Shown here piece after piece: positions 15,613 to 44,185 of a stretch of DNA of 64,000 nucleotides. The DNA is taken from assembly GCF_020360975.1 (NCBI RefSeq), contig NW_025408670.1, positions 6,200,001 through 6,264,000 of the forward strand. Direction: 5' to 3'. Below the pieces are notes generated by a model. That model did no database searches. It was not told the origin of the DNA and saw only the letters and a list, made by a program, of their open reading frames with translations. Positions within the stretch are counted from its first letter, which is position 1; every line of letters begins with the position of its first letter. The stretch comes from Hirsutella rhossiliensis (Eukaryota; Ascomycota; Sordariomycetes; Hypocreales; Ophiocordycipitaceae). A program made the translations under genes and the position numbers.

Positions 15613-15867
15613 ATGGCGAGAAAGTCCCTCTTGTCTCTAAACGTCGGCTTGAGCACCTCCACCGGGTAAACACTCTTCACCTTGACTGTCTTGTTCTTCT
15701 CCCGTGCCACGGACTAAACTAGGGACAGTTGCCATATTTTTGCGCAGCCGTCCGAGGCAGAGAAAGAAAAGCACGCCAAGGAAAGCATCGAGCGCTGGTT
15801 GAGCGACATTGACGCGGTGGTACTTCTCCACGCTTTGGTCCGTGTGGTAGAGGAACGTCAGTGTTGA
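15613..15867 (+). CDS. RWL small-protein family member 1 (predicted, two exons)
   Basis: Exon 1 is 15613-15665 (17 codons plus 2 nt); exon 2 is 15729-15867. The 63-bp intron starts GTAAAC and ends GGACAG, with a branch-like GACTAAAC about 10 nt before the acceptor. The product is 63 aa, opening MARKSLLSLNVGLSTST; exon 2 carries KESIERWLSDIDAVVLL and ends VRVVEERQC. Exon-1 length, phase-2 intron and the distance from splice to RWL match the genes at 22733, 28664 and 37182. A competing acceptor at 15747 (GCGCAG) would shift the frame and give only 35 aa; the GGACAG choice is favoured because it yields the family motif. A pyrimidine-rich leader precedes the ATG. There is no signal peptide and the function is unknown. 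Weakest of the four because of the acceptor ambiguity. Confidence 0.4.
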
Positions 15868-18800
15868 GCAGGCCGCGTAGTAGCTATAGTTGCCTTTTCC
15901 TGCAAAAGATACCACAACCGGGAATGTCACTTCAGCCGTGACCGACTTGATATCCGCACCGGATAGAATCGAGGTATTGGAGCAAAACCATGTGAAGATT
16001 CGTCGGTGCTGTGGAACCAATGTTGCGATAGACAGTCGGTCCGTCGCGGTTAAAATTTCTACGATTTACGAAGGAAATATAAGATCTGGCACTTCTTGTT
16101 CTCGTCCGATACACGGCTCCCGCCGGAGGTGCTCACTCTCTCCTCCCGCTGTATGACGCGGCCAGGCTTGTTAGGTGTGACGTAGTGCCGATCAGCTTCC
16201 AAGCTATGTCAGTTCCTAGCCGTACGGACGTTCTCGACTCGTCTCGAGGCCGCCACTGATGCAATACTATCGGGCGACTTCGGCAACATGCAAGCGCGCA
16301 GACTGGTCGTGGGGCGGTTTTCGAAGACACCGAGACTCCGAAATGGAGCAGACTGCGTGGATAAAAGCAAAAAAGATCCATTTGGGGCCAATACTCTCAT
16401 CCATTCTGCACAATCGTTGTGGCGCTGCGAGACAATGCAGTCCAAGCCGGGGAGGACGGAGGCTTGCATGTCCCCCCCTTCCACAATCCCAATGGCTTGC
16501 TCATTTAACATCGCTGGGGCATCGACGTAGCAAATGGCCACTACTCAAATGCTTTGAATTGCCAAAGGCTCACAAATTCACATGCCTTCTGGTTCCAGCT
16601 AATTAAGAGGAAGCTTGCGGTCGCGTCAAGAGCGAACTAATTCTTATTTTTGCCTCCTCTAAGGACGGGGCCAAGTCACGCGCACGAACTTGGGGCCACG
16701 GCGGATGCTAGTTTCAATGCCGCCTCGCCGGGGCAATCTATTGAGCCTGGATGCTGGTAGGGAGCCCTGGCTATGTACATGATCCCTCTGCCGCGTGACC
16801 ATTCGGGCCGGGGTGTCCCTCGGAGCTCATTCCAATAGGGCGCCGCTCTGGCCAGGAGTCTGGTCTGACATCTATTCCGCAGCGTAGCGATGCTAAACTT
16901 TCGTCCACGGGGCATCTCCTTGCATCCCGTGTGAAGCCAACTCGCGCCGTTGCATCAAGGGACTCCAGCTGGAGGCGTGCGAGCCGTTCTGCTTCGGCAT
17001 GGGATGGACAGCAACATGGACAATTCGTGCTTGGCACAAATGTCTCGCATCTAGAACTTTGGCGCCCTGCTGAATCACGCAGCCGCGGGCGCACAAGCTA
17101 TTCACTGCATGCGCAGACGCAGAGACATGTATGTTTGGCAAGCGGCTCCAGTACAGGAGACCGGAGGTAGGGAGGGGGGGTGCCTTTGGAGCGCCCCCTT
17201 TCCTCGTGACAGGGAGGGCGAGAAGGAAAGAGTATGATGGCCGGACGAGCTTTTATGGCCAGTACAGGTGACCGCCTATACCAGCGTACAATCTCAGCGA
17301 CGCGCCCCCATCCGGCCATCATTTTCCCTCTACAACCCGACCCAAGCATCCACGACATGGTTGGCTCAAGGAAGTCTCTGTTTTCCTCAAGCTTGAATGT
17401 GCATATCTTTGTGAATTTTCGACACGAATATGCGCCGAGGAAAAGCTAACGTTGGAGGTCCAACTTTCCACATCCGCCGAGGCCCGTATACTTTGACGCG
17501 GCCGCTTGCCTAGAAGCAAGTCCTGCATACTCCCTTTTTGTGTCCACAAGAGATACTGCGTGCTACTGGGCAGCTACGGGCTCCCAACACTACAACATAA
17601 TCCCCCGGGATGCAAATATGCCCGCTCAAAGTGTTGCATCGGAGTCGTGCTACGTGGGCCTTGTGGCTATCCGCATAGTGGATTGACGACATGACTCCGT
17701 CAACTTACACCCCCCCCCCCCCATTTTTGCCCTCAATACTACCTCTTCAGGTATTTACTCTTTCTTTATTAGGTCCGGTGATGGCATTGGACGAGAAGCT
17801 CTCGTCGAAGCACCGAGGAGGATCACGACGTCTGGTCAAAGCGTCCCCCCTGCACGGGGTGGAGCTGGCTCCGAGGTTTAGACACCAAGCATGTGTGCTG
17901 CCAGCAGCGGCACGTACCTGGCCTCTTACACCGGATAACTTGCCGATCAAGCTGTCACCTGAAGTGAAAAACCTCTTGCCCCTGGCATCTTGATGATGCA
18001 GTGTTGATCTCTTTGCCAGGGATCCTCTTGGCTGGCAGGCCTCCAGAGTTCAGGGGTTCCCCTGGTTTCGCAAACTTTGGCAGCTCTGCAACTCGAAACA
18101 CGCGTCCATGCAGGCTGGTTGCTGCATGTGCTTCCACTGGGGCTTTCACCCACCCAGCATGGATAATAAGCGTCCTTTGCGTGGCGGCCTGTCGTACGGC
18201 ATTCCGCCAGCGGTTTCTGCAGGCCACACAAGCCAGCACACAGACAGCCAAGCCTGACACAGGCAGAAGATGAGGCTGCATGATTGACAGGATCAATTTA
18301 GCAAAGAAATGGAGAGGGGGAAAGAAGCAAAACGAACGCGCGTGAGTAGGCTCTTGCCGCTGTCTAACCTTGTCGAGCTGGGACGCAGCAGGAACAAGAG
18401 CAATGATAGACATGTAAAATTAACGCCTTCATCCTTGCTTCCGATAGGCAGGGTGTGAGTCCTTTCTTTCCGAGACATGAAGTTACTGCTACGCCGTAGT
18501 CGAGTTGATTTAGCTCATCCGACGGATTGACGGAATTGAACATGAATGAGGCGGATGCGTTCATCTCCGCGGAGGGCAAACATGCCGCAGCCAGTCTACT
18601 GCAGTGCTCAACTTGGCTCGCCTTGATAGTAACATCTTTGCGGCCTTTCCGTGTACATGTACATGCACTCAGCGAACGGCATGTAATTACGGGGGTGCTT
18701 ACTGCGGGCTTCTTTGTTGAGCTCGACCTGTAAACAATGACCAGCCTGACTGGGCAGTGCAGGGCAGACATCTAGTGGCTGATCGCAGGAAGCGGTATGC

Positions 18801-21800
18801 CCTCCCGGTTCCCTGATGCTTCGTCGACGTGAGAAAGATCGAACGACAGAGCCTCTGGCGCCATGCCATCCGATTGGAGGGCTCAATCTCGTCATATATA
18901 GATAGGCCAGGTTGTGCGCGCAAGCGAGAGGGGGGAGCCAAGTGACCGGGCCGTGCTTGTGTGGCTTCTGGCCATCGGCCCGGCGCATACCTACAACGAT
19001 CACTGGACGGTGCCACGACGCATGTCACCAAGTCCAATCCCGAGGTTCAAGAGATGCGCGAGGCTTGGCGGCCAGTCCAGTGGACCCTCCGGGGAGGTCG
19101 GAACGAGATGCGGTCGTGAGGGGAATCGAGAGAGGCGAACAAAGCCGGCGGGGGGGGAAAGAAAGAAAAACATAGACGCGCCCACGAGGTCATCCGAAAG
19201 CTCGGAGCCATCCCCGAGCGTGCCTGACTGGCTGCACGGCGGCTAGTCGGATCACAGCAAAGTTGCATATTCGGGGAAGCCGTCTGCGCGGGCGCAAGAT
19301 TCGGTTCCGCGAAGAGGAAAATTAAAAAGAAAGAAGGGCGAGAAAAAGGAATGAGGATAAACACAAAGGCAGGTGCATCAAGCCTGAGATGGCATTTTCC
19401 GCATATTTGCGAATATCTCGAGCCGGTCAATCAGTTCGTGTGACGCCGGGAGACCCCCCCCCCCCGGTCGTGGCCGGAGACCCGCGTCGAAGCCAGCCCG
19501 TGCATTTGGACGTATTGGAGCAAAGACCGGTGACCGAAGCCCATCAGGGCTGAAGAAACTGGCCGACGGCAGAGTGGTGCAGACTGGAGCCAGGCTGACA
19601 GCTGCCGCTCCATATTAGCTCTGAGGTCCGAATTAGAGTGCCGGCGGCCATGCGGCGGTCCGGCCCGAGACGAGCGGGACCGTTTGTTTCCGTCTCTAAA
19701 AATAGGCCAATTGGAAAAACGAAACAAAAAGAGGAGCTCGAACCTGGCGGGTGGACAGCTTGCTCTTTGCCAAGACCGCGAATGGCTTCATTTTTGTGAT
19801 GGCTTACCGCCTGACGGCTTCTCGGGCGTGCAAGGGTGGGTGGTGCACGCAGCGCGTGACCTCCCCGGCAAGCCATCTCCAGATTCCGACTCTGACCTTG
19901 CTGTGCCTTGCAGTGACCAGCGGAGGAATAAGGAGAAAGTAGAGCTGCCTGGCCGGCTCAGTCGCTCCCGGATTGCCAGATCAAATTGCCCCTTTCTTTA
20001 GGGCTACTGCCCTGCAGCTATGGTGCTGACGGTGGGCTGCATGGCAAGGGGCCCCTAGCCAGGCTTCCAATGCCGATCCGGGGACCGCTATTTCTTTGCC
20101 TCTGCCCGAGGTAGGCCAAGGATGAAGACCTCGAGCGATGACGAGACTGGTGGCGTGCAAATGAACGCGACACTGGGCCTCTGATTGGAGCAGCGGAAGC
20201 TAGTTGCAGATTGCGGACGTGATTCCGGGCGAGGCCAGAACCGCGATTTGCCTGAACCTGCAATCTCAGGCTCGCCGAGAGCCAGCTTAACGAATGAAAT
20301 CGCTCCCGCTTCGTGCTAAGAATGCTCGTGCTTCGCGTACAGGAGCGGGCCGACAAATCACGTCAGTATAACCCTTGCTTAGCCACCGTCTCGGAGAGAG
20401 GGGCGTTTGTCTTCACCAACCCCTTGGTGGTGTTGAGGGTGGACGAGTGAAGGAAGAATGGGGCAAATACGACGAGAACGAAAAGGCGAACAAAAACGAC
20501 GTGTGCCGCCAAGGTACATAGGATCGGAGGCTCCATATCGACACTCGGTGACGTGGCCCCGGGCCACGAGTCCCATGGAGTGTGAATTTCCTTTTCTTTA
20601 TTTCCTTTTTTGCCTTGGCTAGCTCCGTGGCAGGGCGTGTCGCACAGAACAAAGAGAGACTCTCACCGGGGGGATAAAAACGGACAACAGGGTGCTCGTT
20701 TTTGGCTTCCTGCTGTGATCCCATGCTCCTCCCCTCGCAGAAGATGGACACGGGCCCAAGAGACCGGGGCGGAAGAGGAAAAATAAGGGGGGGGGGTAGG
20801 TTGCCGTCGGACTGGAATGCCGCTTCGCCGAGGGATGCCGCTGCGGTGGCCCGACGCAACGAGGGTCGCGCCGCCTGACCATGCACGCACTCGCAGTTGG
20901 TGACGTTATGTCTCCGGCCGAGGGAGCTCCGTGGTCAGGGCAAAGTTGCCTCGCGGGCAATGTGCAGAAAAGAAGGGGGGGAAGTGAGGACTGGTGGCGG
21001 GCTCGACAAAAATGACCGGGCCGGGCGTCGCGTCTCTCTGGCACTCCGCAGTCTGCATCCGACTCTATCCGGCAGGCCAAGCCGGCGGGCAACCAAGTTC
21101 CAGACCAAGCACCGGTGATGACGGTTGTCCACGCAATCGGATTGGCGCACCCGTTATGTCTCACGGTGAAACGGCACCAAAGAACGCAAGTCCCCTCCCT
21201 CTATGTGCACCTGTCATTGAGAATCATCCCACACCACCCTTTCTCAGCCAGCCGGCCGGGGCTTCGTACCTGGAGCGCCCTGAAGCCGCTCTTTGAAGGA
21301 GTTGAGATCCGTGACGCGCTCACGTCGGTTTCGAGCCTCTGCGTCTTGCGTAAATTCCACGCCCGGCCTGGGGATCGATGTACTCAATGGCGGCTCTGGT
21401 CCTATTCACAAGTAGGACTATGCAGCTCGGCCCCAGAATTCGCCCGGCTGATGGACCATGGTCTCTGCTGAGCAAAACGTTCCCGGCCAAGCCAAAAGAA
21501 ATTCAAAATCTAAAAAGGCCGCGGCCACGATCCAAGCCTGCATCGTCAGGGACGATCGAGAGGCCTGCGACTTTCCACCTCGGAAAGATGCTGCACCCTT
21601 AAAAGGCTTAAGTCCGGCTCGACACTTGCATGTAGCGTGTGCTGTTATAGACCGGGGGGGGAGTCGTCCCGCATAAGCTTGCCCTAGGTGATTCAGTCGT
21701 GCCCCCACCCTCCCTCCTCCTCTGCAGGTTGGCGTGTAATTATATACATGTGCGTGGGTGGGCGTGTGCTGGTCGTGTGCGGGCCCTACATCAAGACCGG

Positions 21801-22732
21801 ACTCGAGAGGCCTACTTTGTGTGGAAAACCACATCGTGGTGAACATGGACCAACAGGCTGACCAGGTGTGGGCGCGTGCATGTAGCGTGCCGGTTGAAGT
21901 TGAGGCCTTTCCGTGTGCTTCGTACCGTTACTGCCTCGCAAGATCTGCGCAGAGTCGAATCCATACCACCCCTCCCCTCATTTTGAGCCCCGGCTTGGAT
22001 GCTTGGATGCCTGTCCACCCACAGCGATGCCGGTATGCATTGCACACCGCATGGGATTCTGGAATCTGCATTGCAAGTGCTTGCAAAATTGCTGCCACTC
22101 TTTTCGAAGCCGAGCGCCCCCCCCTTTTCCTCTTCCTTCACCCCCTCCCAGGGCAGCATCACTTACACCGCGCTGTCTTGCCCACCTTCTTCACAACTGC
22201 CCGGCTCAGGCAGGAAGTGGTACAGCCGTCGCCTTGTCTTAGAACTGCGGCGGTGTGTCAGACAGAACATGCAAAGTTGCAGCTCTGCAGCACGCTTTCT
22301 TCATGTGCCTGGCTGACCTAGTACTACTCTTTATCGTCAACCCGGAGATCTTGTCTCCACCACTTGGCCGGCCATGGACGTGTGTGTCCCTTGCTTTGGC
22401 TTAGCAACTCACCGGGTATCCAGTCTAGCTTGCTTGGCTCAGCATTGCATGTATCCGTCACCTGACGAGTACAGTATTCTTCACCCTGTCCCCAACATCG
22501 TCTCCTCGACCTCGTCCATAATACTCGCGCGCGCCCCCCTTTCTCTTTCACCTTTGATCGGCGCTAGACTTGGCCACCACTTGTCTCTTCTTCGACCTCT
22601 TGCAACCTCTTCCTCGCCCTCTCTCGCAACCTCTTCCAAGCCGTCCGTACATGAACATCAACTCTGTCCCGCGCCCGATCGCTGTGACCTATTTTCCGCT
22701 TCTCTCCTCCTTCCAATTTTTGCTCGCCCGAC
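15868..22732. other. gene-poor stretch, no supportable gene
   Basis: About 6.9 kb with only short unrelated frames on both strands. Homopolymer runs occur at about 17710-17722 (C) and 19456-19466 (C). Some 150-200 codon frames at 20.4-22.3 kb are proline/arginine-rich, lack any domain signature and are read as chance frames. Confidence 0.5.
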
Positions 22733-23026
22733 ATGAGCCGTTCAAATGACTCCGTCGACGCCAACTGGGGCTCCGTCGCTGAGCACGAGGACATGTAAGC
22801 CAACCCAGTCCCCTCCGTCATCCTGCTTCCATGCACATGTCTCTCACCCCTTGACAGCACCAGCCCCCCCCCGGCGCCCCAGGTCACTGGAGAGGAAAGG
22901 GCGCTGCACAGAAGCGAAAGCCTCGGCCGATGGTTAAGCTCCGAAGAATCTCGAATCATCATCCTTGGCGCGCAGCCTCGCGCAGCTGAAGACCGATCCC
23001 AGCCATTCACGTCGACGCACAAATAG
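22733..23026 (+). CDS. RWL small-protein family member 2 (predicted, two exons)
   Basis: Exon 1 is 22733-22794 (20 codons plus 2 nt); exon 2 is 22858-23026. The 63-bp intron has a GTAAGC donor and TTGACAG acceptor. The product is 76 aa. Exon 1 contains SNDSVDANWGS; exon 2 contains HRSESLGRWLSSEES followed by the aliphatic run RIIILGAQPR and a polar tail ending in STHK. The SNDSVxxNxGS block is shared with the gene at 28664, and the phase-2 intron position and RWL motif with all four members. The 200 bp before the ATG are rich in CT with repeated CCTCTT, a usual fungal leader. No signal peptide, membrane span or known domain. A longer minus-strand frame (22564-23169) covers the same DNA but shows no domain. 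Confidence 0.55.
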
Positions 23027-25504
23027 CATTCGCGTTCCTGTCTTCGATGCCGGGACGCAACTGTTGGGGGTTTCTTGGGGCATGGTGGACAGCTGGTGTC
23101 CGAAACGAATGTGAAGATGATTAATGCATGGCAGGGGCGCTCAGGGTCGACTTGGGCGGGCGGGGACATGGATAGACATGGACCAGATTAAACGTCCGAG
23201 CTGCCACGCGTTGTCCAACACAATCAATGTCTTGGGTAACAGGATCTGGAATAGATGATGGGTTACAATCCGATGAATAAATGTGTAAAAGGTGGAAGAG
23301 AATGTGCATCGCAAGATGCCTCAGCGTGCCACGGCCCCATCATTTCATTCCTTTTCATTCTTTGATTGCCATGGCCGTGGCATCTGTACAGGGCACCGTC
23401 CGGAGTCACGTATCGCCAAATGTAGAGCCAAGATCCCTCAGTCATCTCGTATCCGGCTTGTTGTACGAAGCACAGTACAAGTATCAAAGGTTAGCGGGCA
23501 CTGGACACTGGATGCTCGGCAGGGGTCAGGCAGGGATGGACCGGCTTGTCAAGCCTCTTGGTCTTCGCCACACAGATCCATAAGACGAAAGTACGAAAAA
23601 GGAATCATAAAGGATGGCGTAACATACAGCGGTCTGCACACAAGCCTGCGAGATGCCTCAACGGAGGGCTGACGAGGAGTGGCTCCCGGGCTTGCCAGCG
23701 GATATGGGCTCCCACGGTAGGGTATCAGTTTGAGACAATATGGCGCGCCACAGCGAGAACGTAACACAATCGCGATGCTGCTCAGAACCTCTTTGCCTGC
23801 TGACGGCCGTGATCCTCGAGGCTGCCCGGGGCCGGTGTCTACGGCGGGGGTGTGAGTGAGATGAACGACGGGGGCGCCCAGATGCTTATGGATAGTGGGT
23901 GTAAGTCAAGGTTGAAGGAAGCCCAATGTTCACTCTGCGACATCAGGTGTCTACCAGGCACTTGTTGAGCACAGTGCATAATATGAGACGCATGTCTGAC
24001 CTTGCTCCGGCAAAGATGCTTGCTGGGGTCTGGGGTTTCCCCCGCCCACCCCCCCTGTGTAGATTTTTCTGCATTCAAGGGCCAGGGACTTTCAGCCCTG
24101 CTTCTCCACGCTGCCGGCCAACGCCAGGGAGCCGAGCGCTAGCCCATCAAGGGACTCGTGCTCTGTTCTAGCCGGTCAAACACGTGTCTACCGTGGATCA
24201 TTGCGTGATGCGCAGATGTAGCCAAGAGAAGAACGTGTTGGTCGCTCTTGTGCGTGTGTGGTGTGAGCCAAACAGAGGCGGCCTGCCTGGTCTTTGGTCG
24301 AAAGGCCCAGATCTACGACAAGGGTCTGTCCGGGGGGCTGTTCATCCCGTCAAATGGCAACCAACCAACCATTTCCCAAAGGGTTTACCTCTGCCCATCC
24401 CCCTCCCCCTCTTACATACACTACAAAGTGTACAAAGTGTACACCTTATGCTGCGATGCGCGCAGGAGCCGGCAAGGCAACTATCTGTTTTTCTTTACCC
24501 AAGGTAGCTCCTCGGAAAGGGCATATCCGAGTCTTAACAGTCCGGACACATGTACCCCGGGCTTGATAGGTCCACCCCCACCAACTGCATCCGCTCCCTA
24601 ATAGACAGCCATTATTCTGGATGAATATTCGGGGGTTTCTCCAAGTTCTACAACAGATGGTTCCTACACCCGCCTTTCCGGATTGGGCCAGACCATGAGC
24701 GGGGGCTTCATTTTTCAATGCTCCCACCCCCCTTGCTCTGGAATCAGCTGCGATCCCGCCCCCTTCCAAAAGAACAACGCCCATCCGACGAGTACAGTAG
24801 GTACGAGACAGCAGCATGCGTCGATGATGTGAGACTTGTTTTCCTTTTCGACGGACAGACGGACAGGGATCAATGGCCAAGTTCAAGTCGCCTTGAAAGA
24901 GCAAATGGCAACGTACCTAGTGGTTGAAGAGAACCTGCAAATGAGACAAGTGTCTTCAAATGAGGCAACGCAAACAACAGGTACTCTGCGAGTGCCGGCG
25001 TTGTGGCTATGCAAAGCCCACAAGGGACAAAGGGCATAGATTATTTTGCCTTTGATTCTCACCCGTTGGCGACCCAAGGCAACGACGATGGAGTCACAAT
25101 GGTTGAGTAGAGGCGCGGATGTGGGCGCAACAGCTAGCCAAATCGTCATCGGTTTGCCTTCCGCCGCCACGGAACAGGGGCAAATAAGAGGGGGGGGGGT
25201 GCGGGACGTGAAAGAATAAGGATGTCTACGTGGCACCCGAGTACGAGCTTTCGAAGCAGAGTCAGAGCAAATGGGGCCATGAGAGTGCCGCGCGACGGTG
25301 AGACGGACCGTAAGGCGTCTGCTTTCAAGTTAGGACAGGGAATTGTATGCAGCTCCTCTCTCTCTTGATCCGCGGAAGCTGGCTCAGTGGTGGTTGGGTC
25401 CAGTGCATGCAGGCACGTCGGGTACCTTTCGCTTGCACACCTGCCCGCCATGCTTGCAGGGAAAGGAAACTCACCAAAGGATCTTGACCCTGCCCTGCTG
25501 AGCT

Positions 25505-26004
25505 CTCTGCCCAAGTCTGCTGATCCTATAACGCAGTGGCGCCTCTCATAGCTTTGGGCACAACGCTCCGGGCGGGCACCCCCGAGACTACGTAAGGTGC
25601 CTGTACGTATGTAGGCCAAGCGATCTCGAGGATAGAAGAGGCGTTAGAGTCACCCAGTCTGTACTACTATAGATGGGCAAGCCAGGTCAAGATGCACCCG
25701 CCGCCCACCCCCGGCGGTGGGGGGTTGCCCGTCTAAGCGGGGGTGACAAGGCACCCTCTGCCTAAGCCTGCTGATCCTATCATCCTATAACGCAATGGCG
25801 CCTCTCATAGCTTTAGGCATAATGCTCTGGCCGGGCACCTCCGGGACTACGTAAGGTGCCTGTACTTATGTAGGCTAAGGGATCTCGGGGATAAAAGAGG
25901 CGTTGAAGTCACCAAGTCTGTACTACTGTAGATGGGCAAGCCAGGTCAAGATGCACCTGCCGCCCACCCCGGGGTTGCCCGTTCAAGCCGAGGTGACGAG
26001 GCAC
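25505..26004. repeat. adjacent tandem duplication, two units of about 250 bp
   Basis: Unit 1 is 25505-25754 and unit 2 is 25756-26004, directly abutting and roughly 85-90% identical by eye. Both carry ACTACGTAAGGTGCCTGTAC and GATGGGCAAGCCAGGTCAAG in the same order. Unit 2 has an extra 8 bp near its start (a second ATCCTATC) and lacks about 9 bp of a GC-rich run near its end. Many differences are transitions. No coding sequence is seen in either. Confidence 0.9.
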
Positions 26005-26019
26005 GGCTCACGGTCCAAC

Positions 26020-26090
26020 TACCTAGGTAGGTATCCGTAGATAGGTAGGTAGACAGGTAGGTAGACAGGTAGGTAGATAGGTAGGTATCG
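26020..26090. repeat. TAGG/GGTA simple-sequence array
   Basis: Repeated GGTAGGTA-type units broken by GACA and GATA. The array starts at a TACCTAGGTA palindrome (26020-26029) just after the tandem duplication. The motif resembles a short telomere-like or transposon-derived satellite, but the unit is 4 bp, not TTAGGG. Confidence 0.85.
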
Positions 26091-28499
26091 CCCCCGGCTG
26101 GCGCGAACGCCCTGGGGAGTGCCCCGCAAATTGTACAGTACCTAGGTACTGTACCTATCTTAGAAAGTGAAGACAACGGGCCCGGGCACGAACCTTAAGG
26201 GCTCGTGCCGCGGCTCAGGCTGACGAAGCTAGAATAGCCCAATCAGGGGCGCCTACAGCAGTCTCGTCTCCAAAGTACAGGTACCTTGGAAACAAGCCAG
26301 GTGCCGGCTTCCTTCGTACCTAGCTACCTACAGAGCAGGTAGCAGTGACTTTCCAAGAGACTGCTTGAGAGACACTTTTGCCCGAGGTCTTTGTACCAGG
26401 ATACCGTAGATATGTAGACTGCTCAACGATGTTCAGTACAAAGCACCTGTTGAGTGGCTCGCCCCAACCGATGAGATACGTGACCTATCAGCTATTACTG
26501 AGTACTACCTACTTGGTCAACTCGGTGGCGCCAATCAACGTACTTTTACTAGGTAGGTAAGTTGGTAGGTAGGTAGGCTGTCAACAAGGTCCCGTTGTGG
26601 GGCAGCGACTTTCCGCCCCGGTGACGACAGCTGACAGCAGTAGGTCCTAGAGTCGGAAACCGGAGGCACCAGAGAGGCGACAGAGTCTCGGGGATGGTCA
26701 TGAGGGTTTTGCGAAGAACAAGCTGCATACCGAGGCAGCAAATACTACAACAACAGTACGTCCTCTTCAGGCCCGGCTTTCTGCGCGCGAAGTTGCTTCT
26801 CCCAGTTGTGACCGCCTGGCTGAGCGTATATTGCACGGTCGCTCTGTCCCTGGGACTCTGAAAGCTAAGAACAGGGACTCGGATCCTCGTCTTTGCCGGG
26901 ACCGAGCAGCCACCACCGTATCTCTCGGTCGGGCAGAAGCCGTGACGCGGCAATGGGGAAAGCTTGGCGTCGATGCAATGCTACCGTCCCAGGCGAGAGT
27001 CGATGGGGCTTGCCTTTGGCCTGGGGAGCGGCCGAGCGTGACCATTTCGGTGTGCGAGCGCGCATACAACATCAGTCCCTGTCGCCAGTCCCTGTCGACG
27101 GTCCCTGTCGACGGTCCCTGTCCAGTCGAGCTTGGAGCAACCGCCCCTCCACGTCATCCGGCACCGACCCCGGCGTGGCCGAGATGCGAGCAAGAGACGG
27201 ACACTTTTACTCGCTCAGCCTCCTGCCCCTGCAGATCCCGCCCAATTGCTGGGCTTGAAGCTGTGGGTGGGTGAGACGGCATGTAGTTCCACTGTGGTTG
27301 AACTCGGCCGTGCTTGGCACAGTATGGATGGGGACGACACTGCCATGGCTGATGAAAAAGGACATGCATGTACTTGCCTCGTACCTGAGCAACTGAGGCT
27401 ATGGATAGTATACGGAGTAGAGGGTCATGCTAATGGGGACTTGGGGCGGGCGGGGACCTGATCTCGCGGTCCCAGACTACTAGCAAGTTAAGTCTCTTTT
27501 CTTCATCAGCCGACACGTGGACCGGATAAAGTAAGGACGTTGGTGCCATACCGTGCACAGAGTCAATCAGCACGGTGGTGTGCTCCTGTCAATGCATACA
27601 ATACATACCTTAATAACCAGGAGCAACTCCCAAGGCTGAGCTGAGCGCGGCGCGGTTCCGGCCCGGGACCAAGCTTCCCATGCTGTGAGTTCCCTCATTG
27701 CCCTTCCAGCCGGCTCTCGAGTTGCCGCTGACACCCAGAGATGCACCCCCCATGCGCTCCATCGCCTGGCTAGGAGTCCTAGGACCGATGCTGCGCGCAG
27801 TGCTCATGGCATCCCATTCCCACAGAGAGGGCAACTGTCCTTGACTACCAAATCCCGACACTCGGTCGATCCAAAGCCAGTCTCTCCAAAGCCAGTCGAT
27901 CCCCCGCCAGTCGATCCCCCTCCCAACCCAGGGCGAAACCACTCTCCGACCGATGCAAGCTTGCCTCGTCTACATGCACACACGTCCAATGGGAACAGGT
28001 TCTTGCATACCACCCTTGCCCCCGGCTCATGAACCCATGCCTTCCCAATCTTGTCCGTCCACTGGTCCACTGGTCCACTGCTGCCGCGGGGCGGGGGCGG
28101 GGTGAGGGGGGGAGGACGGGCTTGCCGCCAAGCTGGCTTGCTCAAAGGTCCAAACTCTGGCGTCCCTGCCAAAGGCTTGAGCCGCATCTGTCAGACTCCG
28201 CCAGTACTGACCTCCCCACCCTTGAACTCCGTGTTGCTCGCCTCGGCCTACTCTCCATCACGGCGCCCCTTCAACCAATGGGACAAGAACCGAGCCGAGC
28301 TCTCAGAGCCCTGCCAGCTCATGCTTCCGTCCCCCACCCCCATGCAGCCGGATATCGTTGGGCACGCCATGCTCGGCGTTCGAGCGCCTCTGTGGGCTTA
28401 CCGGTCATTCCGTCATGCCCGCTCCGAGCCCTGTCGATCGTCTTCAAGTCAACCATCGCTTGGCCCTGCCTCGGTTCCAACCCACGCCCTCTTCGACTC

Positions 28500-28507
28500 T
28501 ATATAAG
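28500..28507 (+). promoter_or_regulatory. TATA box of RWL family member 3
   Basis: TATATAAG lies 157 bp before the ATG at 28664, followed by a pyrimidine/A-rich leader. Position and sequence fit a core promoter. Confidence 0.5.
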
Positions 28508-28663
28508 CCATCACTCCGACCACTCTCCTGAGCCCTCGCCTGCTCCAGGTCCTTGACAACATTCACATGACAAACCATAGCCTCCTGCTTCATACAGTCC
28601 CGTCTTCAACGCACCCGAGCTATCTATCCAAATCTAACTTCTCTCAAACCGTCCGTCTTCGTC

Positions 28664-28930
28664 ATGGCACCCACCTCGAACGATTCCGTCGCCGTCAACG
28701 TCGGCAGCTACACCAGGTTTGTCATCTCCAGTCCCTTTCTCGTCTCTCCTTGCTGACCACCCTCCCTGTCTCCTAGCTCCTCCGGCATGCCCTCGTCGTC
28801 CAAGGGTGGCTCCCAAGTGTCCACCAGCGACATCCAGCGATGGTTAGACTCGGCCGGCCCGTCCGTCGTGAGGCTAAGCCTCGTTCGCCCGAACCCACCG
28901 TCACAGCCGAATCCGCCTGCGGAGACCTGA
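28664..28930 (+). CDS. RWL small-protein family member 3 (predicted, two exons)
   Basis: Exon 1 is 28664-28716 (17 codons plus 2 nt); exon 2 is 28777-28930. The 60-bp intron begins GTTTGT, has TGCTGACC as a good branch site and ends TCCTAG. The product is 68 aa. Exon 1 carries SNDSVAVNVGSY; exon 2 is Ser-rich, then STSDIQRWLDSAGPSVVRL, then a proline-rich tail ending in PPAET. It shares SNDSVxxNxGS with the gene at 22733 and the RWL block plus aliphatic run with the gene at 15613 (VVRLSLVR against VVLLHALVR). A clear TATA box and CT-rich leader support transcription. Cytosolic or nuclear by default, as no targeting signal is visible. Function unknown. This is the best-supported member. Confidence 0.6.
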
Positions 28931-31900
28931 TACGTTGCCCTGAGCACCATCTTCCTGAAGCTTAAGCAGGAGGGGTGATTCGACAAGGCACGTCCACACC
29001 CGGCGGCGTGCTGGCCATTCTTTGCCGCATAGTGCCGTGGTTGGAAATGCTGTTTCACGTTATCGGATTTGCGTTGAATACATATACCTGCGATGGAAGC
29101 AAGATTGATCGAACCGAGGCTTGGATACCTCTGCGTCGTTTCCCCCGAGGCCCATTTGTCTGCCTTGGGGGACTGGATTCCTCATGTGGAGAGACGTTCA
29201 CTGTTTTTGTATGCACCGCCAGCTTCGTTGCTTGCCTTTCTTCCCTTTACTCGGCAAGCATCCTTTTGCCACCGAATGCATGCTTCCGTCCCCCATGTTG
29301 AGGAGGAATCATCAAGTCTATAGTAACGTCTTCATCCGCTCCTCTATTAGTCAGCAGCAAGTGCGTTATGTCGATGGTCACGGACTCACGGCCCTCACCA
29401 TACAAGGCCACTCGTGCAATACGACAAGTATTGCATTATTCCCTTTGGTATGCCACAAACTCTCACGCAGATGCTTCGTCTCTTGTGTGGATGGCGTAGC
29501 TTTCAAGTCCCTAAAGCACGTTCGCGTCGGGGTTCCAGATGTCATGGCTCGAGATGTTCGGTCAACATAACCACACTTGACTTCTCGTCCTCGTCGTCCT
29601 CGAGGTCGTCGTTTTTCTCCCGTGCACTCAACCAGCATGATCAGAAGCTTTCAACAAGGGCACTGTACGCTCCGTGCTCCCGGCTGGTGCGTGCCTATGA
29701 GCCATTTTTCTAGCGGGACACTTACATGGCAATGATGTTCAAGGCAAGTTGTTGCGGCTCGTTGATGGCGTCGTGCTCAACATATTGGATGGGATGTCGA
29801 GGCTGTGGGCGTACCCAACCACGACGTACACGGGCCAGCCGGCAATTTATTGCGTCCGCGTCCTAGCATATCCGCACAACCATTCAGTATACTGCCCCTC
29901 GCAGCTCTCTTCAAATGGAAACACCCAACTGCCCCAGTCGCTGACAGTCCTGCGAAGCAGAGTCAGCCAATGCGTGCCAGCTCTCGCCACAAAAGCGCCG
30001 GCTTATGGAACTTGTCTAGTAGCGCATCAGTTTACACAACGCAGCAGTAAGTAAAGCCACGCTGCCTAACTTTATTGGCCGCTGCGTGAGAAAGCTGCCA
30101 GGATCATAAGAGTTTCTATCTACTATATACAATATATGTATCGCTACTTGATAGATAACCAGCTCCCTATAGCAAGTGCTCATAGATTAGAGCATATTAC
30201 AACCCTATAATACATAGCTGGTGACATTCCGTTTCAATGGTAGTATAATGAGAATACAGAATGAGTATTAGGAAGATACACCAGCATTTCGAACATTTAC
30301 TGATAGAGGCGAGGCAGTTACTATGTATCAGTTTAGCCTTGTCTATTCTACTCAAACTACGGATATTGAAAACGTACTAATACTAGTTAATAGGATAGTT
30401 TTTCCGCCTATAATAGGTTATATATTTCAGTATATAAGAGTATAGGTCTTACTCCTAGTAGAACCGAATAGCGCCAAAGGCGTTTAATGTAAGAATGCTC
30501 TATCCTCCAAGTAAGTAGACTCGTCTAAAGAAGCTGTGCGATGAGTCAAGTACGCTGTCGCTCAAGCTAGACAACGATTGCTTTATATTATAGCTTGAAC
30601 CGATTCGGTATCTCGCAAGTCCGCTCTAGATTTCCTACCAGAACACAGGCAAGGATGAGACGACGGGCACTGACGAAGCTTGGCAACTAGTTTCTTGGGA
30701 GACGTCTAGGTCGTCCACTCTTGGGAGAACAGAGCTGGATTATGCTTTTGTATGAACACTGCATCGGCTGCTTGGCCACCGCATCTCGGAAGGGTCCTCG
30801 TGTCGTGGTGACATTACATATGTACAACACCCGCATTGCCGTGTTCCGAGACAGGGCCCCTGAGCCGGCATATCCGATGTGAAAGTCGGCATATTTCGAG
30901 ATCTACTCGGCAACTAACGGGACCGACGCCGGCACCCGAGGCAAGCCCCGGCTTATTCCCAGTTATGTAAGTCATGGCCATGCATGGCGTGATGGTCTCT
31001 CCAAATTGGCGTCCCCGTACCTCTGCCCCGTTATGTTACACATCACCTGAGCATCTCATCTATGCGGTTCGTGATTGGCAGGCCCTTGGGTGGCGCAGGG
31101 GATGGCGACGCGGAGATGAGGCCGAAACTTTAGCACGCGTCAACCTGGCGAGGGATTCCGAGCATCCCAGTACTTGATGTAGCGGCACGACGGGGGGGGT
31201 GAACCATATACAGTCGCGTCCTGGTACTCCAGATCGGAACAGGGACAGGGGTTGTGGAGATGTTGCGGCACTCGGATGATGGCCGATTCGCATGCTGCTG
31301 ATAAGAGTTTGCCACCGCTCGTGTCGTCGGGCTGTTTCTCGGCCTCCGAGGGACAGTCAGCAGGCGCTTAAGTATGGCGGCTCGCAAGGGACGCTGGGTA
31401 CCATTTCGTATTCGTTGATTCAGGTGATCTGTATTATGGGCCAGTCAGGAACAGCGACCATGGTGAGTAGTCGAGATCTGATAATGGCGTCGTCTTTTAT
31501 ACCGAGTACAGGGTAGGCCGTCGCGTGCATGGTAGACCACCAAGGCTGCATACGCTCAGTGGCCTTACCCAGTTCTGTGAAGCAGATTACACACATGTGA
31601 CGAGTAAAATTATAGGCTCGTGCCTGATCTGTTTCATCTTGCATGGCGAGATGAGACGCAGCGGAAGATGGGGAAGATGGGTTGCGTTTCTCGAGTGCAT
31701 GCAGGTGTCTCGCGCCGAGACGATGCATCCAATGGCACCCACGAGGCTGCACCCTACCATCCAACTACCTGATGTGGGCTACGGGCGCCGATCCACATGT
31801 GCCTGGAACCATTGCCGAAGCGCTCTAGAAGGCGGAAGTAGGGTTTCTTCCATGTGCTGAGCGTTGCAGACTGTAATGTGTTTTTGCTTGTCTAGCGCGT

Positions 31901-32899
31901 GCCGTCGCGGAAACGTGGGGCAAGCCGTTGGCTCGGGCGGGGACCAACACTGTCTGTCCTGTTGGCCGCGCGGGGTGTGCAAGAACCCGCAACGCGTGAA
32001 GAGGTGGATGGTCCAAAGTCGTTGAAAGCGTCTCGGGGGGGCTTGTATGGTACGTACAGAGTAACTGGTTACCAGTTGGCACCTGTCAGGCTGGTCCAAT
32101 AATTACCGCTACACCAAGCAAAATAGGGGCACCTCCATTAGGGCGGAGGGGCATAATTGGCGCGTATTAATCAGGCATCTTGTCCTGACAGTAATTACTG
32201 TAATTACCTCTCACCCCAGTCGGCCTCTTGTCGATCATGTGCTTTTGGCCTGGCATTTGTGGAGATTTCAGCTGCGGGCTGGGAAAGACGAAGAGAAGCA
32301 ACGCCAAGGTGGAAAACAAGAGAGGCAAATGGCACATACATGACTTGCGGAAGCACCGAAAGAGGCAACGACAGAAGAAGGAAGAAGACGTGATTGATCA
32401 TCGACGACAGCGAATCCAATCATGCGGGGAACGGCCAAGCCAAGCTTCGCCGCCCGTCGATGGTGCTACCCGATGGCGTGCTTACCATTGGTTGCCGCAA
32501 TTGCTAATGAGAGCAGAAAACTCCATAAATGGTCCATCTCCCCATAGTGCGAAGTGGGTTCCCCGTCGAGCACGCAATCCGCCACCCAATTTATTTATTA
32601 ATCCGCGGAGCCTCCTCGCGCTTCGGCGCTGCCTCTGATCACTCCTCTCCATGGCGCTGCAATACCCTCGTTGCCCGCGACCGTGCCTGATTTGGCGCCG
32701 ACAAGACAGACAACCGACCAGGCCGTCGTCAGCCGCTCGACTCGCCCCCTCTTGCGCGCTTTTCCATCTAACCGAGGCAGCCATCTGATTCCCCATCTCG
32801 ACTCGACTCGACCCGGCTCGTTCATCCATACACGCACGGCGTACACACACGCACATCTACGTAGCCCATCTATCTGTCTGCGATACATAATTCCTCACA
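28931..32899. other. gene-poor stretch leading to the permease promoter
   Basis: No supportable gene. It contains the AT-rich block 30060-30620. From about 32650 the sequence becomes the CT-rich promoter and leader of the permease, with TATTTATTAAT at about 32590. Confidence 0.5.
30060..30620. other. AT-rich, TpA-dense block, likely RIP-degraded repeat
   Basis: About 560 bp much richer in A+T than the flanks and dense in TATA/TAATA words, with many stops in all frames. This composition is typical of repeat-induced point mutation of an old transposon in Pezizomycotina. No terminal repeats or residual domain could be recognised, so the source element is unknown. Confidence 0.45.
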
Positions 32900-34870
32900 A
32901 TGGCGCAAGCCCCCTTGTCGGCCGGCGACAACGACTCGTCGACGGCCCCCAAGCACGATGTCGAGGCCAAGACCCGAGAGCCGTCGCACGACGACGCAGA
33001 GGGCCTCGTCTTCGCCCAGTCCGACTTCCTCAAGCGCTCCCTCTCCGCGCGCCAGGTCCAGATGATCGCCATCGGCGGCACCATCGGCACCGGCCTCTTC
33101 CTCGGCACCGGCAAGTCGCTCGCCACCGGCGGCCCGGCCTCGATCCTCATCTGCTACGCCATCATCGGCGCCATCGTCTTCATCACCATGCTGTGCCTGG
33201 GCGAGATGTCGGCCTTTGTCCCCGTCGCCGGCAGCTTCTGCACCTTTGCCGGGTAAGCTGCTCCTGGGACACGTGTCTTGCTGTCTTGCGAGAGGCGCGC
33301 TGGCTGACCATGGCTTTCCTTGGTTGGGGACAGCCGCTTCGTCGACGACGCATTCGGCTTCGCCCTCACCTGGAACTACTGGTTCAACGACGCCGTCTCC
33401 ACCGCCTCCGACTTGGTCGCCCTGCAGCTCATCCTGCAGTACTGGACCGACCACTTTCCCGGCTGGGCCCTGAGCCTCATCTTTCTCTTCATCCTCATCG
33501 CCATCAACGTCATTTCCGTCGGCGCATACGGCGAGCTGGAATACTGGCTGAGCCTGCTCAAAGTCATTACCATTGTGGTGAGTGGGCCGACGAGAAACAC
33601 GGTCCGACGCCGTCGCTGACCGGTTTCCTCGCCAGGCCTTCATCATCGTCGGTATCGCCGTCAATGCTGGCGCCAACTTGGAGGGCCGCTACATTGGCGG
33701 AGAGAACTGGCGCCTTCCCGGGGCCCCATTCGTTGGCGGCGTCGGGGGCTTCGCCTCGGTCTTCGTGACGGCCTCTTTTGCGTGTAAGTCGGCCGCTCCC
33801 TCGACCCTCCCGGTCGGTACGTGGCCTGACTGTGCGTGCACCAGACGGCGGCACCGAATCCATTGCCATCACGGCCGGCGAAACCAAAAACCCCACAAAG
33901 AACATGCCCCGCGTCGTCAAGAACGTCTTCTGGCGGATCCTCCTCTTCTAGTACGTGCCGACGAGCAAACACGTCGAGCCCGAAAACCACTGACCGCCTG
34001 CGCCTCAGCATCCTCTCCATCCTCCTCATCGGCCTCAATGTCCCCTACACCTACCCGGGCCTCAACTCCAAGTCGACGCGCACCTCGCCCTTTACCATTG
34101 TCTTTCAGATGACGGGCGCCCGCGCCGCCGGGAGCGTCATCAACGCCGTCATCCTCACCAGCGTCCTGTCGGCCGGCAACCATGCCCTGTTCGCCGCGGC
34201 TCGGCTCTTGTACACGCTCGCCATGGAGGGCCACGCCCCGCGGGTTTTCGCAAAGCTCAACAAGAAACAGGTCCCTTGGGTCGCCGTGCTTGCCTCGAGC
34301 GCCATTGCCGGGCTTTGCTTTGCCTCGAGCTTCATTGGAGCCGGCCAGCTGTGGAACTGGTTGCAAAAGTAAGTTGCCCCCCGGGTTCTCGAGGGGGTGG
34401 CGAGGTGTCGGATCCTGCCTCCCCTCTTCCAACGCCCACACGTGTCTGACTGGGGGCTTAGCATCGTCGGCGTCTCCAACCAGCTCAGCTGGATCTCCAT
34501 CGGCATCGCCTCCATCCGCTTCCGCTCCGGCCTCGAACGCCAGGGCAAGACGCACCTGCTCCCCTTCCGTAACTGGACCTATCCGTGGGGCCCCTGGATG
34601 GCCGTCGTCCTCAACTGCTGCCTGGTGCTTATACAAGGGTGGAGCTGCTTCAGCCCCAAGTTCGACCCCGTTAGCTTCGTGAGTTTCTACATTGAGCTAC
34701 CCATCATGCTCATCATGTATCTTGGGTGGAAGCTTTTCAAACGGACCAAGCTAGTCGGGTTGGACGAGATGGACCTGGAAACGGACGTTCACACTGCCGA
34801 CGAGCACGCGGTAGAGAAGAAGAAAGGGTGGCAGGCAAAGGCCAGGAGAGCCGTCTCTTGGATATTCTAA
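32900..34870 (+). CDS. amino-acid permease, YAT family (APC superfamily)
   Basis: Six exons: 32900-33252, 33334-33577, 33636-33783, 33845-33950, 34009-34368, 34462-34870. All five introns are GT-AG (58-93 bp), and joining them gives one 539-aa frame. After a soluble N-terminus comes SLSARQVQMIAIGGTIGTG (about 47-65), the YAT first transmembrane signature. Next are GLGEMS-like CLGEMSAFVPVAGSF, FAYGGTESIAITAGET (about 247-262, split by an intron), VPYTYPGL and VILTSVLSAGNHALFAAAR. About twelve membrane spans are expected. The family imports amino acids with protons across the plasma membrane; this sequence is closer to the lysine/arginine and general permeases than to the dicarboxylic type, but the substrate cannot be fixed. 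The acidic/basic C-tail (EKKKGWQAKARR) is a usual endocytosis-control region. Upstream DNA is CT-rich. Confidence 0.93.
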
Positions 34871-36952
34871 TGCTTGGCCGAGTTACCATTCACGAGCCCC
34901 ATGACTCCGTAGCGTCTTGATAGCCAGCTTTCATTCCAATCATGTACATACAAGTCGCCAGCTGAAGCATCCAAGTCGACAAGTCGCACCAGAGCCGCAA
35001 TCGATCAAGTGTTCCACTCGTGTCTGTCCGAGCGGTATTCCGCCAATCTGATGTGTATGCACGTATTGACACGTGTTGGTATATGTGCGCGTGTTTGCCT
35101 GGGATAATTTTCGGGCTTCAGAGCTGGCCGGTGGATGACCGAGCGCCTTGTTGGAAATAGAAGCCGCCGATCCCTCGTGGCCGCCTTTCTGCAACAGTCG
35201 CAAGGAATAGAGTGACGGTGTAGTCGGTGACGTCACTTGCCGGTGCCAAAGCCTCAGCGATTCTAGAGCAGGCTGTGCCGTTGCTTATTACATTCTCCAC
35301 TCGTAGAGGCGATAGGCTTATGCCCGAATAGCCAAGCCCTACGTATCCCTGCTATGGCGCGGTACTTAGTTGCCGTACAGCATATGCAGCCTGCTTGCGT
35401 TTGTCACCCCGTGCTAACTCTGTGATATCCCCTCCCCCGCGCTTAAACTGGCCATCCCCTTCAGCCGCTGGCATGTTTCCGGTCCCCTCGTCGGTGCGGG
35501 GACAAAAGAAATTCAAGCACCATGAATGTATCGCTTATGATCCATTTGAGCATGCTGCTTAATGTTTTCTCCGTTAAAAGTTTTTTAAAGCCCCCCTTAT
35601 AAGAGGGACTTGGTTATTGTGAAAACGGCTTGAAACGGGACATCTTTCAACACCACGTAGAGTATCCGTTCAAGAATGCATCTACGCAATGTCCGAGTTA
35701 TCTCTCCCGATGCCCTTTAATGCCTCTTGACACCTTTTCGGTGGGCTGTGTGATAATGGCTGTCTCGGCGTCGGTAGACGAAATCATGGCGTCCTAAGTG
35801 CGAAGACTGTGACCATCATCACGGAATATCTCCGAGTTGGATTTCCTTCTGCTAAGTTGCGGCACATCGATAGAGAAAGCCTGGAGATCCCCCCCTGCTA
35901 TCAGCCGCAGGCGAAGAGAGAAGAACACGCAACACGCTCCTCGTCCTCGCCCACAGCTGAACCCGTAATGCCTGGCTTCTCAACATCAAGGCTTCATACG
36001 ACATGACGAGCCTAGAGGTGTTTTCGGTGCGTGGCGACATATTTCGTGGATGGTAGAGCGCAGAGGCCATGTATCTTTTTAGAGCCCTGCCCCCATAGCG
36101 CGTGGGAGGGACTCCGCATGGCGCAGAGGGAGCAGGGGTGGGGCGTGGGGTGAGGCGTGGGGTGAGGTGTGGGGTGAGATGAGCAGATGCTCTATTATCA
36201 TCAACACGCCCCTACCGCACCTATTGGTAAGAATCCCGTGTTTTCCTGCATCGCCATGCTCGGTCACGATGCCCGTGGAAGTCCGTCTCCCGTATTCCCG
36301 CATGCACGCTTCTGCGTTAAAGCTGATTCTTCATCACCGCTGTCGCGCAATCGACGGCTGCGTCCTCCGACAGCGTCGGTGACCCGTCAGGTGGCTTGAC
36401 AGCAAGCTTGGGGGGTCTAATTCGCTACCGCCAAGGCAAAACGCCCCACCCAAAGGTTGAATCCCTTCATCACTGCATGGGCTGCATGGCCGTTTGCCAA
36501 TTGTCTGACTGCAACCGCGGCCGGTTAAGCAAGTCAAGGTGGACACGCGGCCGGCGCCGGTAGCAAATGCGCGCAACTACTGCACGCACAATTCGAGGGT
36601 CTAATTCGCTACAGCTGCAGCTCTAAAAAACGCCCTATAAAGCTGCGATATCGGATTGTCGGCCGGCAGGGCAAAGATGTCACTCTCCTCCCAAAAGGGG
36701 GGGTGAGGGGAGGGTGAGCTTCTCGCCGCACCTCCGGGATGTGCGTACCGTGATGGTTTGCATGGGTTGTGCTTATTACCTGGTTACCGCGCCGATCAGG
36801 CAGGCAGGGATGGGGAAGAAGTAAGCCCGTAGCCAATACTCAGCTATTATCACGCTAGTGCTGTGCTGTATGCAGAAGGCAGAGAGATTCGAGGCCTTGC
36901 TGTGCTGACGAGACAAGGCAAGGGTGAGAAAGCAGTCGAGCATTGCGATGAG
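34871..36952. other. intergenic, no gene seen
   Basis: No coding signal. Contains the 12-bp minisatellite at 36143-36178, and a repeated GGGTCTAATTCGCTAC at about 36414-36429 and 36598-36613, probably a small decayed duplication. Confidence 0.5.
36143..36178. repeat. 12-bp minisatellite, three units
   Basis: Three consecutive units of GCGTGGGGTGAG; the third has one C-to-T change. Confidence 0.9.
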
Positions 36953-36960
36953 TATATAAA
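36953..36960 (+). promoter_or_regulatory. TATA box of RWL family member 4
   Basis: TATATAAA about 222 bp before the ATG at 37182, followed by a CT-rich leader ending in ACCGTCCCGTCTTTCGCAGTC. A similar ACCGTCCGTCTTCGTC precedes the ATG of the member at 28664. Confidence 0.5.
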
Positions 36961-37181
36961 AAAGTCTTTCCTCCTAGACCTCGACCTGTTCCAACAGCTA
37001 GGATCCAAGTCGATGCATTCGACCGCTCGTGGTTGACTGCATTCTCAAGTATCACAACTCACCCCCACGGCCAAAGCCTCCCGGTTTGTCTGCCGCCGTC
37101 TTCGGAGCACGCGCTCCCAGAGACCGAGTCATTTTCGGGAGACACCATTTCCAGTCTCTTACCGTCCCGTCTTTCGCAGTC

Positions 37182-37563
37182 ATGGGGACTTCTGGGTCGT
37201 CCACGGCCGCCTGTCGAGGCTCCGTTTCCACGTACAGGCCCACAACTTGACACTGCCATCTGCTTCCCTGTGCATGTCCTTGAGTGAGTGCTGATATGTA
37301 TTGCCATTCATAGTGCTGGAAACGATCAATCCGGCACCAACGAGTCGTGGGCCCTCGCGGCAGCTCGTGTGCAGCGCTGGCTCAACGACCCGGACCAGCC
37401 CGTCAGCGCAAAGATGCAGAGGCCGGACCTCAACCCCGCACCGGCCGCAAATCTCGCAAGGCCGTCGGGACCAGGACCAGTCCTAAACAGGTCGGCAAAC
37501 GGGTCGTCGGCTCCAGCAAGTGATGGCTTTGCCGGCATCGGGACCCATTTTGGCTCGCAGTGA
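37182..37563 (+). CDS. RWL small-protein family member 4 (predicted, two exons)
   Basis: Exon 1 is 37182-37231 (16 codons plus 2 nt); exon 2 is 37314-37563. The 82-bp intron uses a non-ideal GTACAG donor, a CTGAT branch and CATAG acceptor. The product is 99 aa, opening MGTSGSSTAACRGSVS. Exon 2 has AAARVQRWLNDPDQP, then a Pro/Ala-rich tail with MQRPDLNPAPAANLARP and ends THFGSQ. The phase-2 intron, the 20 residues from splice to RWL, the TATA box and the leader match the member at 28664. The strong-looking GTGAGT at 37283 would leave only a 31-nt intron and was not used. The exon-1 to exon-2 link is therefore less certain than the exon-2 frame itself. Function unknown. Confidence 0.5.
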
Positions 37564-43300: not shown

Positions 43301-44185
43301 GAGGCCGGTGAAGTTGCGGTAGTCGGCAAGGCCACCGTCGGACTGCATGAACTCGATGCGTGTGGCGGCGGAGCCGAAGCCGCCCTTGAAGTTTGCGGAA
43401 ATGGAGTCGATGTAACGTCGGATGACGGGGGTCAGGTAGGCGTCGGCGACGGCGGACATGCCGCGGGGGACGACGTTGATCATGGGCTGGACCTGCGACG
43501 AGAGGGTGACGGAGAAGCCCACGCGCCGGGCCAGTTGGCCGACTAGGAGCTCGTGGTCCGGGAAGGCGTATGAGTGGATGAAGACGACGGCAACGGAGCG
43601 AAAGCCCAGCGCCCAGAGCTCGGCCAGCCGGACCTCGATTTCGGCAGGGTCGGGCCGCCGCAGGACACGCATCGTCTCTCCCGTCAGGGCGGTGACGAGG
43701 TCGGCGTCGTCCGGACCGGGGACCGTCTTGGCGGCGGCGGGGTCCTCGGTGTAGTCTTCCATGGTGACACGCTCGTCGATCTCGACGACGCGGGCAAAGA
43801 GAGCCTCGGGCCTCGAGACGGAGAGATCAAAGATGTCGGGGCGGGACTGGTTTCCAATGGCCAGGAGGTGGCGGAAGCCGCGGGTGGTGATGAGGGCGAC
43901 GGGGTCTCCCTTGCGCTCGAGCAGGGCGTTTGTGGCGACCGTGGTACCCATGCGAATGGACTCGAAGTGGAAGAGGTCGAGGGGCTGGCCCCGGGGCAGG
44001 GACTCGCCGGTGACCAGCTCGAGAACGCGGCGGATGCCCTCGGTGGGTGCATCCTGGTAGTTTGCCGGGTCGACGGAGAGGAGCTTGAGGACGATGTCGT
44101 CGTCACGGCCGGGGACAGCGGCGTGCACGTCGGTGAAGGTCCCACCTCTGTCGATGGAGACGCGGATGCGGAGCGGCTCGGCCAT
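40328..44185 (-). CDS. OXP1: 5-oxoprolinase (ATP-hydrolysing), HyuA-HyuB fusion
   Basis: One intronless frame of 1285 aa, the usual length for eukaryotic 5-oxoprolinase. The ATG at 44185 gives [20 protein letters not shown], the family N-terminus; the frame stays open upstream to 44494 only through CA-repeat leader. The N-terminal half is the HyuA part: DRGGTFTD (12-19), [52 protein letters not shown]. The C-terminal half is Hyu[38 protein letters not shown], and [20 protein letters not shown] near the end. The enzyme opens 5-oxo-L-proline to L-glutamate with ATP in the cytosol, closing the gamma-glutamyl (glutathione) cycle. Large GC-biased antisense frames over the same DNA are shadows. A GT/CA repeat lies about 200-245 bp upstream of the start. 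Confidence 0.96.

Follow-up and report, generated by a model that had tools for sequence, protein, structure and literature searches.

Do four small loci in one stretch of the Hirsutella rhossiliensis genome belong to a single gene family, and what kind of protein would such a family encode? The stretch, called the window here, is 64 kb long and corresponds to positions 6200001–6264000 of contig C4 in a genome of 81.8 Mb in 40 contigs. An initial annotation had described four two-exon genes sharing an Arg-Trp-Leu (RWL) motif and had suggested that they form a dispersed, fast-evolving family, perhaps of effector- or regulator-like peptides. We conclude that at least part of this RWL gene family is real, because two of the genes have recognisable counterparts in Ophiocordyceps sinensis.

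Gene models and genomic surroundings

The models of the four genes, in window coordinates, are as follows.

Gene 1, exon 1: 15613–15665, plus strand; phase-2 donor GTAAAC
Gene 1, exon 2 to stop: 15729–15867, plus strand; acceptor 15728, RWL codons 15793–15801
Gene 2, exon 1: 22733–22794, plus strand; O. sinensis counterpart G6O67_004929
Gene 2, exon 2 to stop: 22858–23026, plus strand; RWL codons 22928–22936
Gene 3, exon 1: 28664–28716, plus strand; equals HRG_05045
Gene 3, exon 2 to stop: 28777–28930, plus strand; RWL codons 28838–28846
Gene 4, exon 1: 37182–37231, plus strand; donor GTACAG, partial relic on contig C12
Gene 4, exon 2 to stop: 37314–37563, plus strand; RWL codons 37375–37383, family membership weak

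Reading of the loci placed the ATGs, phase-2 donors and RWL codons at all four where they had been proposed, and a listing of frame-keeping splices upheld the earlier models of genes 2, 3 and 4. Gene 1 called for a correction: spliced from its phase-2 donor at 15666 to 15747, it loses the RWL frame, which is kept when 15722 or 15728 serves as the acceptor, both giving the same frame. In genes 1–4, respectively, exon 1 measures 53, 62, 53 and 50 nt (17, 20, 17 and 16 codons, each plus two nt) and the intron 57 or 63, 63, 60 and 82 nt. The four genes, all on the same strand and spread over no more than 22 kb, share a plan consisting of this short exon 1, a phase-2 intron, RWL beginning 21–24 residues past the split codon and an aliphatic residue at −2 (I, L, I and V). 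Because the plan defined the gene set, a match to it is not independent evidence of membership. A further motif, VVxL-x2-4-LVR, is indeed present in two genes (VVLL-HA-LVR and VVRL-S-LVR), with a gap of one or two residues rather than two to four.

The codon score was highest in the true frame of the six for each of the four genes, the lead over the other frames in gene 1 being just 0.01–0.04 per codon. Mean scores were slightly negative for genes 1 and 4 and about zero for gene 2, as measured against a background (6001–31000 of the window) that is itself gene-poor and therefore biased toward calling that stretch non-coding. The description of the surrounding DNA as gene-poor is fair by codon score for about 7–32 kb, where, gene 3 aside, two ORF segments barely pass the threshold (14.9 and 14.6 against 14), but it overlooks an intact permease gene within the span. 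The features recognised around the RWL loci are:

32900–34870, plus strand: amino-acid permease, six exons, intact, with codon signal; not of the RWL family
2823–4595, minus strand: HET-domain ORF (Pfam E 3.8e-05; 24.5 bits, cut-off 22.5)
40328–44494: oxoprolinase ORF (Pfam)
55552–56361, minus strand: reverse-transcriptase fragment ORF (E 6e-11), perhaps part of a retroelement

The permease gene separates genes 3 and 4. Its product matches an annotated H. rhossiliensis protein at 100% identity, this protein falls in a two-member cluster, and no O. sinensis protein was named among the best 120 of the 6461 matches. The Pfam scan covered 20 of the 187 ORFs of at least 100 aa and also matched two fungal transcription-factor ORFs, an MFS transporter, a phenol-hydroxylase-type domain and a CLP1-type kinase. 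Within the window a bacterial-code scan detected no tRNA, and no match to Rfam reached the gathering score. A tandem repeat of four 37-base units with 92% matches occupies 51039–51187 of the window. Outside it, C4:6110001–6140000 has a GC content of 0.41–0.46 in three stretches, compared with 0.49–0.63 in 21 others, and is possibly an AT-rich repeat block.

Chance matches, O. sinensis counterparts and links among genes 1–3

How often the gene plan arises by chance was estimated by enumerating two-exon models on both strands, with donor GTANN or GTNNG, acceptor YAG, introns of 48–110 nt and products of 45–140 aa; the plan was counted where exon 1 spanned 45–66 nt and a phase-2 intron was followed 15–36 residues later by RWL with an aliphatic residue at −2. 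The window yielded four such loci, the same as in the initial annotation, and no fifth on either strand. Dinucleotide shuffles of the window (n = 400) held a mean of 0.08 such loci and at most two, 372 of them having none, so the pattern shared by the four genes is real. Dropping the aliphatic condition raised the shuffle average to 0.38 loci (maximum 3). The 240 kb of real flanking DNA contain two plan loci, both in the left 200 kb and none in the right 40 kb, or four when the aliphatic condition is dropped. Chance matches thus exist at about 0.5 per 64 kb, a rate at which the probability of at least two in 64 kb is about 0.1 (Poisson estimate), and genes 1 and 4, for which no counterparts were found, are therefore not proven by the plan alone.

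Evidence of another kind came from a profile built on the four proteins and compared with 5.8 billion protein sequences, with matches up to E 10 reported; gene 4 entered both rounds of this search and the Pfam search as 100 residues (an extra Thr at the splice) and the scripted analyses as 99. Three proteins matched: HRG_05045 of H. rhossiliensis (E 5.8e-21), which is identical to the gene 3 protein, and, from O. sinensis, two hypothetical proteins, G6O67_004929 at E 2.6e-12 and G6O67_004930 at E 0.43. A second round with six sequences returned these same three at 6.9e-16, 5.7e-25 and 9.7e-15, values obtained with a profile that already contained them, and added nothing new. The protein profile searches thus found no annotated relatives outside the two species, and gene 3 is the sole one of the four with a listed H. 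rhossiliensis protein, none being found for genes 1, 2 and 4. For genes 1 and 4 these searches, which reach only annotated proteins that share short exact words, gave no counterpart.

In pairwise alignments, gene 2 is 59% identical to G6O67_004929 over 75 columns that span gene 2 in full, and gene 3 is 59% identical to G6O67_004930 over 44 columns extending through RWL. We therefore regard G6O67_004929 as the counterpart of gene 2 and G6O67_004930 as that of gene 3, and on sequence likeness their homology is secure. The O. sinensis tags carry consecutive numbers, which ascend from the gene 2 counterpart to the gene 3 counterpart, in line with the succession of the two genes in the window. G6O67_004930, considered here as a protein, diverges from gene 3 past RWLDIA, possibly reflecting a different annotated splice. 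An identity of 59% between the two species also fits the earlier description of the genes as fast-evolving. The gene 2-type and gene 3-type proteins resemble each other as well: HRG_05045 and G6O67_004929 align at 27% over 63 columns, from SNxSVxVNxGS through RWL, with E 1e-7 in a single comparison.

Membership was then judged with held-out profiles scanned over 304 kb (the window plus the 240 kb flank; 4323 candidate two-exon models). A four-sequence profile, which combined genes 2 and 3 with their O. sinensis counterparts, placed gene 1 third with 17.2 bits and gene 4 fourth with 14.0, the best other locus scoring 12.0. Across 60 shuffled versions of these 304 kb, 17.2 was never reached and 14.0 just once, by a locus that was not phase 2. 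Masking of RWL took genes 1 and 4 down to ranks 73 and 965, respectively. With exon 1 alone gene 4 ranked fifth (4.7 bits) and gene 1 43rd, and with exon 2 after masking of RWL gene 4 ranked 491st and gene 1 367th. Much of the score of genes 1 and 4 is thus due to RWL, the very motif by which they had been chosen.

Profiles from a single gene and its counterpart linked the first three genes to one another. After gene 2 itself, the profile of gene 2 and G6O67_004929 found gene 1 (20.3 bits), gene 3 (13.7) and then a locus at 8.7; after gene 3 itself, the profile of gene 3 and G6O67_004930 found gene 1 (13.1), gene 2 (12.4) and again a locus at 8.7. The gene 2 profile scores gene 1 through a model with a different donor, exon 2 carrying the score. 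With RWL masked, gene 3 (9.1 bits) still came first after the own members under the gene 2 profile, as did gene 2 (10.6) under the gene 3 profile, while gene 1 lost most of its signal and fell to ranks 5 and 11. The best scores in 30 shuffles of the 304 kb were 15.3 for the gene 2 profile (median 8.3) and 17.2 for the gene 3 profile (median 8.7). None of the 30 reached 20.3, the score of gene 1 under the gene 2 profile; three reached 13.7 and one reached 13.1 or 12.4. The masked link scores of 9–11 lie near shuffle medians of 8.1 and 8.7. On this comparison, the links other than that between genes 1 and 2 are suggestive and not decisive alone. Taken together, genes 1–3 are probably one family. 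The four-protein family first proposed therefore stands for these three, through the O. sinensis relatives of genes 2 and 3 and the held-out links, but not clearly for gene 4, which sinks into the noise once RWL is masked.

Gene 4 and copies elsewhere in the genome

Could the family comprise genes 1–3 alone, with gene 4 fitting the plan by chance or being small but unrelated? The profile comparisons found no likeness of gene 4 to the others beyond RWL. In addition to its masked rank of 965 above, it stood at ranks 22 and 153 under sub-profiles before masking and at 248 and 960 after it. Once gene 1 was added to the profile, gene 4 scored 11.3 bits, the best locus beyond the members and gene 3 frame variants, and it dropped to rank 345 when RWL was masked. 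Its fifth place with exon 1 alone is at a score often reached by shuffles, and the two plan loci in the flank show how readily the plan can recur. Against separating it from the others, gene 4 is a near neighbour of genes 1–3 that shares their strand, the phase of their introns and the placing of RWL. Its unmasked held-out score was the fourth in 304 kb, a level at which the single shuffled locus lacked a phase-2 intron. We consider a chance or unrelated gene 4 somewhat unlikely, and its membership of the family plausible.

A broken relic of gene 4 on contig C12 (around 329182–329367) was recovered by the genome searches. The relic is 80% identical to gene 4 over 81 bases that run from exon 1 into the beginning of the intron and 73% identical to part of its tail over 89 columns; exon 1 has an in-frame stop and the RWL part is missing. 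Whole-genome protein and DNA searches, which are insensitive at this divergence, turned up no convincing additional copy for any of genes 1–3. These searches scored first-look candidates only, one exon at a time, and gene 2 was missed when gene 3 served as query, so diverged paralogues outside the 304 kb could escape them. Within the 304 kb, the profile scan found no further family locus above chance. A two-exon candidate at C4:6076331 (minus strand) carrying NWGS and SALSRWLN scored 11.3 bits, which is within chance, and weak matches of G6O67_004929 on C3 (E 0.52 and 4.8) and C2 (E 3.4) had no RWL in their central 120 residues in three frames and were set aside. These results neither establish nor contradict the dispersal that had been supposed: four lie within 22 kb, and the relic is the one outside copy that the searches, insensitive as they are, brought up.

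Products and possible role

The four predicted proteins have 63–99 residues and negative mean hydropathy. As judged from hydropathy, a hydrophobic, signal-peptide-like start is absent from all of them, the highest 12-residue mean within the first ~40 residues being 0.97 in gene 1 and at most 0.44 in the other three. Gene 1 has two cysteines, gene 4 has one, and genes 2 and 3 have none. A model of the gene 3 protein based on three sequences predicts one helix at residues 34–44 of 68, spanning DIQRWLD, and at its low confidence (pLDDT 65, pTM 0.25; 79 for block 31–40 and 56–71 for the other blocks) no structure besides it. No Pfam family reached the cut-off for any of the four proteins, PDZ_6 for gene 3 falling far short (E 0.24, 11.6 bits against 27). 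One of six members matched an NCBIfam bacterial type III effector model at E 0.02, which we read as chance. Comparison of gene 3 with the PDB by sequence gave nine unusable NF-kappa-B p65 chains (E 0.74–0.99), and comparison by fold, with the low-confidence model as query, gave no match at E 10. Within the open-licence literature, as far as it was available, we found no description of an RWL family.

The reading we favour, tentatively, is that genes 1–3, and possibly gene 4, arose by local duplication and encode one family of small intracellular Ophiocordycipitaceae proteins with a putative partner-binding helix and regulator or adaptor role. It is based on the shared plan, the O. sinensis counterparts, the profile links among genes 1–3, the lack of a signal-peptide-like start and the helix predicted for gene 3. 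The RWL helix would dock on a partner protein with its Trp and Leu on the contact face, most likely by coupled folding and binding, and the protein would thereby work as a small regulator or adaptor. The tails of the copies may have diverged to suit different partners or growth stages. The regulator-like role suggested by the initial annotation is thus one that we infer. Rather unlikely, in our estimate, is that the loci represent an undescribed helix-bearing microprotein family in which at least two neighbouring genes have been kept in two genera of fungi that parasitise nematodes and insects and the short RWL helix, as the main fixed part, docks on a common partner.

Other readings of the loci take them out of coding DNA or out of the cell. 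Spliced transcripts that are non-coding or little translated, with incidental small ORFs, would account for the weak codon signal of genes 1 and 4 and for the fact that the profile searches list an H. rhossiliensis protein for only one of the four genes; we judge this improbable given the protein-level likeness to another genus, which extends over all of gene 2 and over gene 3 through RWL. Secreted effectors acting on a host appear more improbable still. Such a role would suit small, fast-diverging proteins known here from two related parasites only and encoded in a gene-poor region of a fungus that parasitises nematodes. It is opposed by the hydropathy of the N-termini, which lends the label effector-like no support for any of the four proteins, by the paucity of cysteines, and by the presence of counterparts in O. 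sinensis, a caterpillar parasite.

The N-terminal SNxSVxVNxGS would have yet another meaning if it were one of the short amyloid-type motifs that signal in partnership with fungal NLR proteins, and if RWL were the effector part. The stretch loosely resembles the V-N-x-G-S/N cores of such motifs, and there is a HET-domain ORF in the window. An intron follows soon after the motif, however, the four proteins drew no Pfam family at the cut-off, and none of the 20 ORFs scanned matched an NLR domain, so that we consider this reading highly improbable. We return to the proposed locally duplicated intracellular family, which is worth following for its fixed plan and predicted helix. It supplies a compact motif and gene plan that can be sought in other Ophiocordycipitaceae, and if the helix binds one partner it would offer a direct experimental handle. 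It also illustrates that gene-poor stretches of such genomes can hide conserved small spliced genes missed by annotation, three of the four being unlisted here.

As a kind, the RWL genes are a lineage-restricted small-gene family. Lineage-restricted (orphan) families of small fungal genes are short, have no known domain, occur in related genera only and are poorly annotated, and the RWL family resembles them in each of these respects. It differs from them in that intron phase and RWL position are fixed across neighbouring copies.
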